A stretch of 64,000 bases of DNA from Leptolyngbya iicbica LK (GTDB taxonomy: Bacteria > Cyanobacteriota > Cyanobacteriia > Phormidesmidales > Phormidesmidaceae), in contig NZ_QVFV01000002.1 of assembly GCF_004212215.1 (NCBI RefSeq), positions 1,317,373 to 1,381,372 on the forward strand, given 5' to 3'. Both the position numbers and the translations under genes were made by a program. Shown piece by piece: positions 262 to 3,970 of the stretch (positions are counted from its first letter, which is position 1; every line of letters starts with the position of its first letter). Under the pieces are notes generated by a model. That model did not search any database. It was not told where the DNA came from and was given only the letters and a program-made list of their open reading frames with translations.

Positions 262-1017
262 TCAACCCGTCGACATTGAGTTGCCATGTTTTCGAGCCAT
301 GCCGATATAAAAAACCTGGGTAATGTCGTCAAACTTGGCCCACAAGCTGCCAGTTTGCCAGTAATACCAAAGCGTTTGCAATTGGCTCAGGGGATGGCGC
401 CCGAACAGATCGAAGCCCTGAATCTCCACCTCCCAAAAGTCGGCTTGCTGGAGGTGCCGCGTTAACTCCTCCGGGGAAACAAATTGACGCCAATCGTGAA
501 TGCCCTGGGGAATCAGCCGCAGCCAATCTTCTAGCAGCCAAATCATCAACAGGCGAGATTGCCAGGTGCGATTGAGCGTGTCAAACAATAAAAAGCCACC
601 GGGTTTGAGCACGCGGCCAATTTCCGCAATGGTGGTGGGCACGCTCTGCACATGCTCCAGCACATCGACACAGGTGACAATGTCGAAGCGATCGCCCGCA
701 AAGGGCAATTGTTCCGCTACGCCCGTGTGATAGTCGATAGCCAGCCCCGTGGATTGAGCATGGGCTTGTGCTGCCGCAATGCACGCCGCCGATTGATCGA
801 TGCCGGTAACGACCGCACCGCGCTGGGCCAAAAATTCGCAGGTATAGCCGCCGCCACAGCCCACATCCAGCACTTGCAGACCGCGCCAGTCGGGCACGTA
901 GCGGTCAAAAAATTGAAATCGCAGCGGATTCAGCTGACTCAGCGGAAAGACGGTGGCGGTTTCGTCCCACCACTGGGCTGCTTGCTGGTCGTAAAATGCG
1001 AGATTGTTGCGCTCCAT
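262..1017 (-). CDS. UbiG-like class I SAM-dependent methyltransferase
   Basis: 251-residue soluble protein with a Rossmann methyltransferase fold. The SAM-binding motif I, VLDVGCGGG, lies near residue 50, followed by an acidic loop (GIDQS) and a CVDVLEHV post-motif. The N-terminal NNLAFYDQQAAQWWD block and the overall length (UbiG is about 240 residues) resemble the polyprenyl-hydroxyphenol/demethylubiquinol O-methyltransferase family. Cyanobacteria make plastoquinone rather than ubiquinone, so the true acceptor is unknown. The gene is divergent from the arsenosugar-type glycosyltransferase, with only 7 bases between start codons, which suggests a shared promoter region and possibly a shared pathway. 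Methyltransferase identity is firm; the substrate is not. Confidence 0.85.
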   Translation of the reverse strand: MERNNLAFYDQQAAQWWDETATVFPLSQLNPLRFQFFDRYVPDWRGLQVLDVGCGGGYTCEFLAQRGAVVTGIDQSAACIAAAQAHAQSTGLAIDYHTGVAEQLPFAGDRFDIVTCVDVLEHVQSVPTTIAEIGRVLKPGGFLLFDTLNRTWQSRLLMIWLLEDWLRLIPQGIHDWRQFVSPEELTRHLQQADFWEVEIQGFDLFGRHPLSQLQTLWYYWQTGSLWAKFDDITQVFYIGMARKHGNSMSTG

Positions 1018-1024
1018 TCGGCTC

Positions 1025-1759
1025 GTGTCTCAGGTTTCCATCATTATCCCCGTCTTCAACGAAGCGAGTGCCCTGAACCGCACGCTGCGATGCTTGCAGA
1101 TTCTCGATCCACCCGCTCACGAAATTATTGTGGTGGATGGGGGCAGCACGGATGCCACGGTAGCGATCGCCACCCAACACCAGGCCACCGTGATCATTGC
1201 CCCCCAACGGGGCCGCGCCCCACAAATGAATGCGGGGGCCGAGTTAGCCACGGGGGCAATTCTCTGCTTTGTTCACGGTGACACCCTCGTCCCCGATGAT
1301 CTGGTCGCGGTGCTGCGTCAAACCTTGGCGGATGCCGCGATCGCGGGGGGCGGCTTTATCTCCATCATGGCGGGAGGGCAACGCACTCGTTGGGGCGTGA
1401 CGCTGCATAATGCGCTCAAAACCTACTATGCCCCGCTGATATTTCGTCCCCGGCGCTTTTTTCGCGATGGCCTACGGGTGTTATTTGGCGATCAGGCCAT
1501 CTTTTGCCGCCGCCGAGACTTTTGGGCCTGCGGCGGTTTTGATGCCACCTTGCCCATTATGGAAGACGCCGATCTCTGTCAGCGGTTATCCACGTTAGGC
1601 CGCATTTGCCAGCTCAACCGGGTGGTACAAAGCTCCGATCGCCGCGTGGCCCAGTGGGGCACCCTCAAGGCCAACTTTATTTATCTCGCGATCGGGTCGC
1701 TCTGGGCCATGGGCGTTTCGGCCACCTGGCTCAAACAATTCTATGAAGACGTGCGCTGA
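1025..1759 (+). CDS. TIGR04283-type family 2 glycosyltransferase (arsenosugar-associated)
   Basis: GT-A glycosyltransferase of about 244 residues. The N-terminus reads VSIIIPVFNE, followed by VVDGGSTDATV (nucleotide binding) and a FVHGDTLVP segment in the DxD position. The sequence resembles the TIGR04283 family, which is named for its association with arsenosugar biosynthesis. A GTG at 1025 is preferred over the upstream TTG at 1004, because the protein then begins just before the first beta strand and does not run into the divergent methyltransferase. Its 3' end overlaps the convergent DUF547 gene by 19 bp. The partner family TIGR04282 is encoded 1.1 kb downstream. Sugar donor and acceptor cannot be read from sequence. 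Confidence 0.85.
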   Translation: MSQVSIIIPVFNEASALNRTLRCLQILDPPAHEIIVVDGGSTDATVAIATQHQATVIIAPQRGRAPQMNAGAELATGAILCFVHGDTLVPDDLVAVLRQTLADAAIAGGGFISIMAGGQRTRWGVTLHNALKTYYAPLIFRPRRFFRDGLRVLFGDQAIFCRRRDFWACGGFDATLPIMEDADLCQRLSTLGRICQLNRVVQSSDRRVAQWGTLKANFIYLAIGSLWAMGVSATWLKQFYEDVR

Positions 1760-2439
1760 TTGAGCGCCCAACTATAGGGCAAAAATTGAACGGTGACGCG
1801 CTCCGGCAAGTTCAACTCCGGGCGATGCTGGCAGATGTAGTCAGGCATCGAATCAGCGACAGTCAAAAAATCCGTTGCATACCATTGGAAAATCTTGCTG
1901 CAATACAGGGTTTGCTGAGTCGCATCGTAGCGGACTTTATCGTCATTGCCGATGAACCGACGGACATCTTCGGTGAGTTGCTCAGCCAACCGGGCTGGCT
2001 CATAAGCTTCGGTTCGCAATAGCGGACAGCCCACCGACGCACAGACTAAGGCGAAGTGAATGCGCGGGTCGGAAAATCTTGCCCGTAGCAGGCCATGCTC
2101 AATGCCGTTGAGGCTGAGGGGCTGCTCGTTTAAGTGATAAACCGTTCGGTTGAAAAAGCGGAGAAACACCAGCCAGTTCGGCACGCCCAGGAAAGTGGGC
2201 CGAATGGAGGCGATGGGATACTTTTGCAGCACCTGGCGAATCGTCAGCGCGTTGTAGAGGTTCAGGAGTAGTGCGATCGCTTCGTCCCGTTCCAAGGTGC
2301 TGAGTTCAGATACAGATAGCGATTCCAGCCAGGCATCCAACTCTGGATAAGACTCTGACTGCCAGGCCGCATAATCCACCTGACCACAGTCATTCACATA
2401 ACGCTTTAGCATGGTGTCCCAGGGGGCAAAGTCAGGCAT
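1741..2439 (-). CDS. DUF547 domain protein
   Basis: About 232 residues with the DUF547 core: a LLNLYNALTIRQVL helix, then a LNGIEHGLLRARF segment and a HFALVCASVGCPLLRTEAY block. The conserved Cys and His residues in that last block are a family hallmark. The function of DUF547 is unknown. The ATG at 2439 (MPDFAPWD) is taken as start because the only upstream in-frame candidate is a TTG at 2469. The gene is convergent with the TIGR04283 glycosyltransferase (19 bp overlap) and divergent from the rhodanese gene, so it sits inside the putative arsenosugar neighbourhood. No signal peptide is visible. Confidence 0.85.
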   Translation of the reverse strand: MPDFAPWDTMLKRYVNDCGQVDYAAWQSESYPELDAWLESLSVSELSTLERDEAIALLLNLYNALTIRQVLQKYPIASIRPTFLGVPNWLVFLRFFNRTVYHLNEQPLSLNGIEHGLLRARFSDPRIHFALVCASVGCPLLRTEAYEPARLAEQLTEDVRRFIGNDDKVRYDATQQTLYCSKIFQWYATDFLTVADSMPDYICQHRPELNLPERVTVQFLPYSWALNQRTSS

Positions 2440-2479
2440 TAGGCTTCGTTCTCGTGCAGCAACACTCAAGGAATGGTCC

Positions 2480-2938
2480 GTGTTTGGGAGCTTAACACCC
2501 CTGCGTCACTTCGCTTGGACGGTGGTGAAACGACTCATCCGCCAAAAATTTCCAACCGTTGAGCGAATTTCGACAGCGGAGTTAGCAAGTTGGTTGGCGA
2601 GCGATCTCCCGCCACCGCTACTCATCGATGCCCGCCAGGCAGAAGAGTATGCCGTCAGCCATTTGCCCGGGGCACACCACTGGCCGACCTTGGCCGCTGT
2701 GCAACAGGCAGCGGTAAGTGCCGATGCTGCGATCGTGGTGTATTGCTCGGTAGGCTACCGTTCTGCGCGGTTGGCCCAGCAGTTGCAAGCCGCAGGCTAT
2801 ACCCACGTGATGAATTTGGAGGGCTCCATTTTTGAATGGCACAACCAAGGTCAGCCGCTGGTAGTAGATGGCAAGCCAACTCAGGCCGTCCATCCTTACA
2901 ACCGCACCTGGGGTCTGTTGTTAGCGTCGCCAGAATAA
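2480..2938 (+). CDS. Rhodanese-like domain protein
   Basis: About 152 residues with one rhodanese domain: LLIDARQAEEYAVSHLPGA near the start and the active-site loop VVYCSVGYRSARLA carrying the catalytic Cys. The intact CSVGYRS loop suggests an active sulfurtransferase or an arsenate/phosphate-handling rhodanese. A short basic N-terminal stretch (VVKRLIRQKFP) precedes the domain. The start is uncertain: GTG at 2480 or 2522, with no clear ribosome binding site. The last 43 bp overlap the convergent TIGR04282 gene. Context suggests a role with the flanking arsenosugar-type genes, which is inference. Confidence 0.8.
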   Translation: MFGSLTPLRHFAWTVVKRLIRQKFPTVERISTAELASWLASDLPPPLLIDARQAEEYAVSHLPGAHHWPTLAAVQQAAVSADAAIVVYCSVGYRSARLAQQLQAAGYTHVMNLEGSIFEWHNQGQPLVVDGKPTQAVHPYNRTWGLLLASPE

Positions 2939-3552
2939 GCCTGCCAGAGAGGCAAATCTTCGGGACGATCAATATCCGAGAGGACATCGAGCAATGTCAC
3001 AGAGAGTCCATGATGGGTGGCGATCGCCATCGTCTCGGCCAATACGCAACTTTGCCCCCAGCTAATGTCGACAAACAAAGAGGGCTGCGGCTGCCGCAAC
3101 CCGATCAAGTAATAGCCCCCATCATGGGCCGGGCCGAGCACCACATCATGGTGCTGTAGAGCGGCGACGGCCTGGGTGATCTGCCCTTCGCCGACATCGG
3201 GGCAGTCACTCCCGATGATTAAAATGGGCTGTTGTCCGGCACGAAAGCCTTGCCAAAAAGCGCGGTGCAGTCTAGCGCCTAAATGGCCTGGGCCTTGAGG
3301 CTTGAAGGTCAGATCGTCGCCCAGCCAATCGTGCATCTGGGCCAACGACCCATCAGCAAAATGGATTTCTAACGCGATTGAGGCGCGATCGCAAATGACT
3401 CGCAAGCGATCGACCAAAAGTTCAGTCATACACCGCTGGACCTGTGCCGCACCTTCTGCCCCCAAAGCGGGAATCAGCCGGGTCTTGGTTCGACCAGGAT
3501 GGGGAAACCGGGTCACCATGATTAGCGTAGCGACGGCGGGCGCGATGGTCAC
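2896..3552 (-). CDS. TIGR04282-type (DUF2064) glycosyltransferase, arsenosugar-associated
   Basis: 218 residues of the DUF2064/CofC-like nucleotidyl- or glycosyltransferase fold. Landmarks are the N-terminal MVTRFPHPGRTKTRLIPALG loop (phosphate binding, RTKTRL), ILIIGSDCPDVGEGQI in the middle and VLGPAHDGGYYLIG near residue 130. This family is catalogued as TIGR04282 and co-occurs with TIGR04283 in arsenosugar loci. The GTG at 3552 is chosen as start because GGGAG lies about 8 nt upstream and the first beta strand needs it; an ATG at 3519 would cut that strand. It overlaps the rhodanese gene tail to tail by 43 bp. Confidence 0.85.
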   Translation of the reverse strand: MTIAPAVATLIMVTRFPHPGRTKTRLIPALGAEGAAQVQRCMTELLVDRLRVICDRASIALEIHFADGSLAQMHDWLGDDLTFKPQGPGHLGARLHRAFWQGFRAGQQPILIIGSDCPDVGEGQITQAVAALQHHDVVLGPAHDGGYYLIGLRQPQPSLFVDISWGQSCVLAETMAIATHHGLSVTLLDVLSDIDRPEDLPLWQAYSGDANNRPQVRL

Positions 3553-3685: not shown

Positions 3686-3970
3686 ATGAAATCACTACCC
3701 ACCAATTGCGTCCCTTACAAGCGCACCGCCGAATTCACTGACGACTCTGTGCCCGATGCGCTGCTCCAAGCCCATTCCACCAAGGTGAATGTGTGGGGCA
3801 AAATCGTCGTACTCACAGGCAATCTGACTTATCAGATTTTGGAACCAGAATGGGAAGCGATTGCTCTGCGCCCAGGCATCGACGGTGTCATTGAACCCAC
3901 TATCAAACATCAGGTTGTCCCCCAACCTGGCGTGCGTTTTTATGTTGAGTTTTATCGCCCGACGCTTTAA
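3686..3970 (+). CDS. DUF1971 (TehB N-terminal-like) cupin-type protein
   Basis: 94-residue stand-alone DUF1971 protein. The N-terminal MKSLPTNCVPYKRTAEF, the STKVNVWGKIVVL strand and the C-terminal RFYVEFYRP are typical of this small beta-barrel family, which also forms the N-terminal part of some TehB tellurite-resistance proteins. No methyltransferase domain follows here. The molecular role of the single domain is not established; oxyanion or metalloid stress is a plausible link given the neighbouring cluster, but that is inference. It is probably monocistronic. Confidence 0.8.
   Translation: MKSLPTNCVPYKRTAEFTDDSVPDALLQAHSTKVNVWGKIVVLTGNLTYQILEPEWEAIALRPGIDGVIEPTIKHQVVPQPGVRFYVEFYRPTL

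Follow-up and report, generated by a model that had tools for sequence, protein, structure and literature searches.

The left end of a 64,000-nucleotide stretch of the genome of the cyanobacterium Leptolyngbya iicbica LK (contig NZ_QVFV01000002.1, positions 1,317,373 to 1,381,372, hereafter the window) raises the question of whether five tightly packed genes at positions 262-3552 belong to the synthesis of arsenosugars. They encode a UbiG-like class I S-adenosylmethionine (SAM) methyltransferase, a TIGR04283 glycosyltransferase, a DUF547 protein, a single-domain rhodanese and a TIGR04282 protein. A preliminary description of the locus, relying on the association of the two numbered families with arsenosugars, had proposed that the other three proteins are extra parts of that pathway. 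Comparison with other genomes gives good support to the conclusion that the five genes are a real conserved accessory module of cyanobacteria, built around a paralogue of the usual glycosyltransferase. That this module is a tailoring branch of an arsenosugar-type, ArsS-dependent glycoconjugate pathway, with ArsS encoded elsewhere in the genome, is a reading whose chances we consider evenly balanced.

Hidden Markov model searches and the reading frames of the window bear out the five families, all above their score cut-offs, and their strict alternation: five intact open reading frames run on strands −, +, −, + and −. The methyltransferase gene (262..1017, minus strand, 251 aa; TIGR01983/UbiG, 183 bits, cut-off 102.95) is followed by the glycosyltransferase gene (1025..1759, plus strand; 211 bits, cut-off 182). 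The mechanically called frame of the latter spans 1004-1759 from a TTG, and its start is most likely GTG 1025, as aligned relatives suggest, because several of them begin M-x-x-V-S; the two genes would then start back to back, with 7 bp between the methyltransferase ATG at 1017 and this probable GTG. The DUF547 gene (1741..2439, minus strand, 232 aa; PF04784, 90 bits, gathering cut-off 27) most likely starts at ATG 2439 within a mechanical frame of 1741-2469, and it overlaps the glycosyltransferase gene tail to tail by 19 nt (1741..1759). The rhodanese gene (2411..2938, plus strand; PF00581, 65 bits, cut-off 22), with an uncertain start at ATG 2411 or GTG 2480, overlaps by 43 nt (2896..2938), again tail to tail, the gene of the TIGR04282 (DUF2064, CofC-like) protein (2896..3552, minus strand; 208 bits, cut-off 134). 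A promoter and terminator scan of the locus gave no signal clearly above that of shuffles.

Since the same arrangement recurs in other species, it is not a product of chance. Loci were taken from the best 80 of 273 relatives of the window glycosyltransferase, a sample biased towards the window's kind, including related species and all cyanobacterial by title apart from two bins with odd names (L116 and L125). In the 5 kb to either side of the glycosyltransferase, tblastn found DUF547 in 33/80 loci, the rhodanese in 34/80, the methyltransferase in 20/80 and TIGR04282 in 9/80, counts that supersede those based on open reading frames, which had overlooked neighbours in L141. At least one of the methyltransferase, DUF547 and rhodanese genes is present in 52 of the 80 loci, at least two in 28 and all three in seven. 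Contig ends truncate some loci; among the 56 flanked by a full 5 kb either way, 23 have DUF547, 24 the rhodanese, 15 the methyltransferase and seven TIGR04282. Gene order in these other cyanobacteria keeps DUF547, rhodanese and methyltransferase near the glycosyltransferase and in fixed orientation to it: the methyltransferase on the opposite strand and divergent (20/20), DUF547 on the opposite strand (33/33) and the rhodanese on the same strand (34/34). TIGR04282 is on the opposite strand in seven loci and on the same strand in two. Of the 33 loci whose retrieved stretch holds both the glycosyltransferase and DUF547 genes, 13 show an overlap of exactly 19 nt and 11 one of exactly 16 nt (24/33 together); the 43-nt overlap of rhodanese and TIGR04282 is kept in L074, L075, L077 and L085, and not in L083, L139, L144 and L152. 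The complete five-gene order recurs in L074, L075 and L077; the species that keep it are Halomicronema, Leptolyngbya sp. SIOISBB and Oscillatoria sp. CS-180, where identity is 56-89%.

The TIGR04283 protein, taken in the preliminary description for the usual arsenosugar glycosyltransferase, proved by identity and phylogeny to belong to a separate clade, here called clade B, paralogous to the usual cyanobacterial clade A. Within clade B, identity to the window protein is 58-89% overall, comprising 59-67% for the nine other clade-B proteins in a survey of 156 genomes of the phylum and 61-89% for the 80 named proteins; the closest relatives among the best 80 of 273 are those of Halomicronema sp. 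CCY15110 (89%) and Leptolyngbya sp. SIOISBB (85%). Aligned TIGR04283 proteins outside the clade, from clade A, proteobacteria and Hymenobacter, are 26-40% identical to it. In a tree of 44 rows, which took in 20 of the 80 named loci, all 31 clade-B rows group together at 100/100 support, long branches being flagged elsewhere in the tree, and neither tree nor identity places the window protein with the TIGR04283 clade associated with ArsS or TIGR04282. The clade A TIGR04283/TIGR04282 pair and the window pair have the same model families and the same HxDT-type and GDQ motifs in common, whereas clade B bears 14 additional residues ahead of GDQ, split into two pieces and mostly aromatic and hydrophobic, and differs in its C-terminal third and its neighbours. 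The insertion and the changed C-terminal third may reflect an altered acceptor site; the structure model is poor (mean predicted local distance difference test score, pLDDT, 69), with most of the clade-specific insertion below 50.

Clade A is present in 66 survey genomes and clade B in ten, nine of which have both, and the window genome alone carries clade B without clade A. This genome (5.7 Mb, 99.99% complete) has a single TIGR04283 gene above the cut-off, and its TIGR04282 gene is the sole match at E≤0.001. Clade A has TIGR04282 no more than 3.5 kb away in 21/65 genomes, the two forming one open frame in seven of these, and ArsS beside it in 3/64; the Phormidesmis locus L094 brings TIGR04282 and clade A together with the rhodanese and clade B inside 9 kb. 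A TIGR04283-like gene of the window genome at C3:257010 (L014 8951-9691; 162 bits, below the cut-off) was considered as the missing clade A and rejected because it is at most 34% identical to the tree rows, is devoid of HxDT and GDQ and has a very long branch; the tree placement of this paralogue is unsure. A Gloeothece plasmid carries a clade-B gene (L156 7995-8729, 58% identity) with no module partners annotated in the stretch shown, and a Calothrix plasmid a cluster-type rhodanese (L162 6001-6435), likewise with no partners annotated in the stretch shown, where most genes are unnamed. Such single plasmid-borne parts hint at mobility of individual genes. A gene labelled by eye as carboxysome-shell-like stands directly upstream of the glycosyltransferase in 14 of 89 anchored clade-B loci.

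Across the survey, TIGR04282, TIGR04283 and ArsS occupy near-identical sets of 67, 67 and 66 genomes, TIGR04282 being present in 65 of the 66 ArsS genomes. Co-occurrence with clade B is strongest for DUF547. A profile of the cluster DUF547 matches 16/156 genomes at E≤1e-10, eight of them at 332-410 bits, all clade-B genomes; above 300 bits, a line set post hoc once the gap between 332 and 150 bits had been seen, it occurs in 8/10 clade-B genomes and 0/146 others, unlinked copies included. Profile rows were in part drawn from genomes later matched (4/8 for DUF547, 4/4 for the rhodanese, 4/6 for the methyltransferase). Four genomes that gave no rows (G008, G039, G054 and G099) have a high-scoring DUF547 far from the glycosyltransferase, and independent support thus comes from four of the six clade-B genomes giving no profile rows against 0/146 (p about 7e-7, calculated by hand). 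The rhodanese is found in four genomes, all with clade B, both by its own profile (E≤1e-20) and by NF045521 (E≤1e-22, none above its cut-off), the curated NF045521 model being the independent evidence here; in G005 the rhodanese and glycosyltransferase genes are on separate contigs. The methyltransferase occurs in six genomes at E≤1e-50, five of them with clade B, its independent evidence consisting of one genome for (G062) and one against (G085). Fisher p values for co-occurrence with clade B are 6e-12 for DUF547, 9e-6 for the rhodanese and 2e-6 for the methyltransferase, ignoring phylogeny and assuming independence. Genomes of one genus can differ: G111 has clade B and DUF547 and G123 neither, while G068 has clade B, DUF547 and the rhodanese and G125 none.

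DUF547 is also a member of ArsS-type clusters in its own right, apart from the window module. Six species carry a plasmid ArsS of at least 40% identity (Burkholderia glumae, Cupriavidus, Hymenobacter, Thiodictyon, Pseudanabaena and Acinetobacter), and in four of them, Acinetobacter portensis, B. glumae, Cupriavidus and Hymenobacter, DUF547 lies within 7 kb of it; none is listed near ArsS on the Thiodictyon and Pseudanabaena plasmids. The A. portensis order is ArsS, TVP38/FAD protein, DUF547, TIGR04283, TIGR04282, ArsM-like methyltransferase and phosphate transporter, with MTAP on the other strand, and the Cupriavidus run is ArsM-like gene, ArsS, TVP38/FAD, TIGR04283, TIGR04282, MTAP and DUF547. 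MTAP and DUF547 occur together in the ArsS clusters of A. portensis (L161 8071-16362), Cupriavidus (L155, about 3.5-13 kb) and B. glumae (L154 5217-18843), and a phosphorylase of the MTAP type is a good candidate enzyme for adenine removal. Set beside four such clusters (A. portensis, Cupriavidus sp. KK10, B. glumae and Hymenobacter volaticus), the window shares DUF547 and TIGR04283 with all four and TIGR04282 with three; unlike the window, all four have ArsS at the locus and three have MTAP and the TVP38/FAD protein. The window rhodanese and UbiG-like methyltransferase were not found in three of the plasmid clusters by tblastn at E≤1e-8; the Acinetobacter cluster has no rhodanese or UbiG-like methyltransferase by annotation alone, its methyltransferase being the ArsM-like one.

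In the window genome, ArsS is not where the preliminary description had supposed arsM and arsS might be, just to the left of the window, where the open frames of 10.3 kb, read by eye, include neither. It is encoded at C9:11634 (TIGR04167, 408 bits, cut-off 300), adjoining two VTT-domain (TVP38/DedA-like) genes; the module is on contig C2, about 250 kb from the contig end, so a long distance separates it from ArsS. ArsS is thus present, DUF547 and the rhodanese do co-occur with TIGR04283 in other genomes, and ArsM was not recognised.

The partner proteins themselves give partial indications of function. The three best Protein Data Bank (PDB) matches of the methyltransferase (4kdc, 4kdr and 5dpm) are all named UbiG-type enzymes; ubiquinone synthesis is not known from cyanobacteria. 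In the material examined, this methyltransferase has no link to ArsS outside the clade-B module. The DUF547 model is confident (mean pLDDT 93.3), and its comparison with the PDB gave no matching chain (Foldseek E of 3.3 at best; Z of at most 3.8 among the 186 top Foldseek chains), nor did its sequence find a relative there (best E 0.18); the structure search yields no mechanism and does not establish a new fold. Its invariant His126, Cys131 and Cys136, found also in four aligned plasmid DUF547 proteins, would fit thiol chemistry and are no proof of it. The rhodanese carries the active-site loop CSVGYR, a C-X4-R loop in which C93 and R98 are invariant in 30 aligned sequences. Rhodanese-fold arsenate reductases of the Acr2/Cdc25 type have a C-X5-R loop and sulfurtransferases a C-X4-R loop, and a role as such a reductase was rejected on loop length. 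The best NCBIfam model for this protein is NF045521, 'rhoda_near_glyco', of which it is no formal member (113 bits, cut-off 145) and whose name suggests that the curators had seen a rhodanese-glycosyltransferase neighbourhood. For TIGR04282, hints of a nucleotidyltransferase-like protein come from a 29-bit CofC match of the window protein and an NTP_transf_3 match of the B. glumae protein below the cut-off.

The known pathway offers a starting point for a function. One study has ArsS acting with ArsM in the first arsenosugar steps in Synechocystis (SsArsS/SsArsM; PMC8552651), and another describes arsenic as adenosylated by a radical SAM enzyme in arsenosugar synthesis (PMC12159101). The window genome likewise holds ArsS, TIGR04282 and a TIGR04283 protein; it differs in that no ArsM was recognised, ArsS is unlinked, the glycosyltransferase is the other paralogue and the methyltransferase, DUF547 and rhodanese are additional. 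Starting from the observed genes, families, paralogy, linkage, co-occurrence and the linkage of DUF547 to ArsS outside cyanobacteria, we infer the following substrates and order of steps. ArsS would produce a 5'-deoxyadenosyl compound, from which an MTAP-type phosphorylase would strip adenine; TIGR04282 would activate the resulting 5-deoxyribose unit, and the clade-B enzyme would transfer it to an acceptor, probably lipid-like, that differs from the clade-A acceptor. The product would be O-methylated by the UbiG-like enzyme, and DUF547 and the rhodanese would carry out thiol or sulfane-sulfur chemistry on it. As no ArsM was recognised, the strain does not have to supply ArsS with dimethylarsenite of its own making.

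Several observations argue for this ArsS-dependent branch: TIGR04282 lies near clade B in 9/80 loci and in the window, whose genome yielded no clade A, and the Phormidesmis locus unites both clades with TIGR04282 and the rhodanese; clade-B loci keep the methyltransferase, DUF547 and rhodanese near, and high-scoring DUF547 co-occurs even when unlinked; DUF547 is within 7 kb of plasmid ArsS in 4/6 species; and the ArsS, TIGR04282 and TIGR04283 sets nearly coincide. The link of the module to ArsS-type clusters is well supported, and arsenic as the substrate here is unproven. What endures of the proposal that the methyltransferase, DUF547 and rhodanese are further parts of the pathway is their recurrence with clade B and the place of DUF547 in plasmid ArsS clusters; it fares less well for the methyltransferase, with no ArsS link outside the module in the material examined, and for the arsenic chemistry itself. 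A more specific version is quite unlikely as it stands: clade B may move 5-deoxy-5-arsinoyl-ribose to a lipid alcohol, whether an isoprenoid or another, followed by UbiG-like O-methylation, or, given that ArsM was not recognised, ArsS, TIGR04282 and clade B may make a non-arsenic 5-deoxyribosyl lipid.

Several results weigh against a dependence on ArsS. In the window genome ArsM was not recognised, the best NF008823 match reaching 52 bits and NF038099 having none at E≤1e-40; the NF008823 scores of ArsM-like reference proteins from Pseudanabaena, Acinetobacter and Cupriavidus are 121, 177 and 192 bits, and these too fall short of the 263-bit cut-off. The clade-B genomes G008 and G111 also have no NF038099 match at E≤1e-40, and in a third, G054, the ArsM match carries three stops. 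None of the ten clade-B genomes has ArsS and clade B within 20 kb of each other on a contig. DUF547 is, moreover, a wide family: weaker DUF547 matches (best 66-150 bits, E≤1e-10) occur in eight genomes devoid of clade B, namely G116 at 150 bits and seven outside the class at no more than 103 bits; of these seven, G018, G035 and G038 have ArsS, and G004, G010, G032 and G044 have DUF547 without it. The DUF547 proteins of Pseudoalteromonas plasmids are at least as similar to that of the window as most ArsS-linked copies, and on the one such plasmid examined no ArsS lies in the 12.7 kb inspected. The methyltransferase is found in G085, which has neither ArsS nor clade B, and 28/80 clade-B loci have none of the methyltransferase, DUF547 and rhodanese within 5 kb. 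The count of 31 among the 66 ArsS genomes, this one included, with no NF038099 match at E≤1e-40 is an upper bound, because NF038099 may cover just one of the two ArsM groups that cyanobacteria have according to PMC5552862; the survey was made with NF038099, and the window genome was searched with NF008823 as well.

The module could be real and yet make a glycoconjugate unrelated to arsenic or ArsS, its 'arsenosugar biosynthesis' label being inherited from a distant paralogue, a possibility to be taken seriously although we put it below even chances. The 26-40% identity between clade B and the other aligned TIGR04283 proteins (from clade A, proteobacteria and Hymenobacter), the retention of clade A in 9/10 clade-B genomes, UbiG as the best match of the methyltransferase and the ArsM and ArsS-distance results all favour it. 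It sits poorly with the DUF547 common to ArsS clusters of other phyla and with TIGR04282 beside clade B in nine of the 80 loci and the window; ArsS in 10/10 clade-B genomes is weak support for the ArsS-dependent branch, because 63/69 genomes of the same class carry ArsS too. The combination of ArsS and TIGR04282 with no ArsM or clade A found could instead mark a former arsenosugar maker whose cluster has been left under weak or changed selection. A pathway of this type may be decaying in G054, whose ArsM match with three stops (G054:C1:3186545) is accompanied by a DUF547 match with one (G054:C1:739877). For the window, such a relic is improbable, as its five open reading frames are intact and the whole order is kept in Halomicronema, Leptolyngbya sp. 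SIOISBB and Oscillatoria sp. CS-180. That five unrelated genes are neighbours by chance might be argued from the alternating strands, which make no operon, and from the 28 loci with no methyltransferase, DUF547 or rhodanese nearby; in our view conservation already refutes this, orientation being fixed in every locus with each partner, the overlaps constant and DUF547 co-occurring even unlinked, so that the idea retains next to no probability.

Around the cluster, domain matches in the 10.3 kb to the left identify a small AAA/SKI-type kinase and a nitronate monooxygenase, and labels by eye add glycoside-hydrolase-like genes and others, none of them an ars gene. To the right, at 3686-3970, lies a small DUF1971 protein (PF09313, 69 bits) with no sign of membership in the cluster.

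Among the open-access papers, as far as their accessible text goes, none was met that assigns genes to post-ArsS steps or deals with TIGR04283 or this cluster; the listed papers naming DUF547 are, by title and the start of the abstract, mostly on plants, none on bacterial DUF547 function, and PMC13077682 lists annotated arsenosugar glycosyltransferase genes. Two paralogous glycosyltransferases under one database label can now be told apart, and DUF547 emerges as a companion found repeatedly in the cyanobacterial clade-B module as well as in the ArsS clusters of other phyla. The window genome is flagged as one in which ArsS is present and ArsM was not recognised, and survey genomes with ArsS and no recognised ArsM may deserve attention, some of them perhaps carrying the other ArsM group. 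PMC7345539 reports isoprenoyl 2-O-methyl arsenosugars in algae, and if clade B and the UbiG-like methyltransferase do make such a lipid, the module would be a genetic lead to these compounds.

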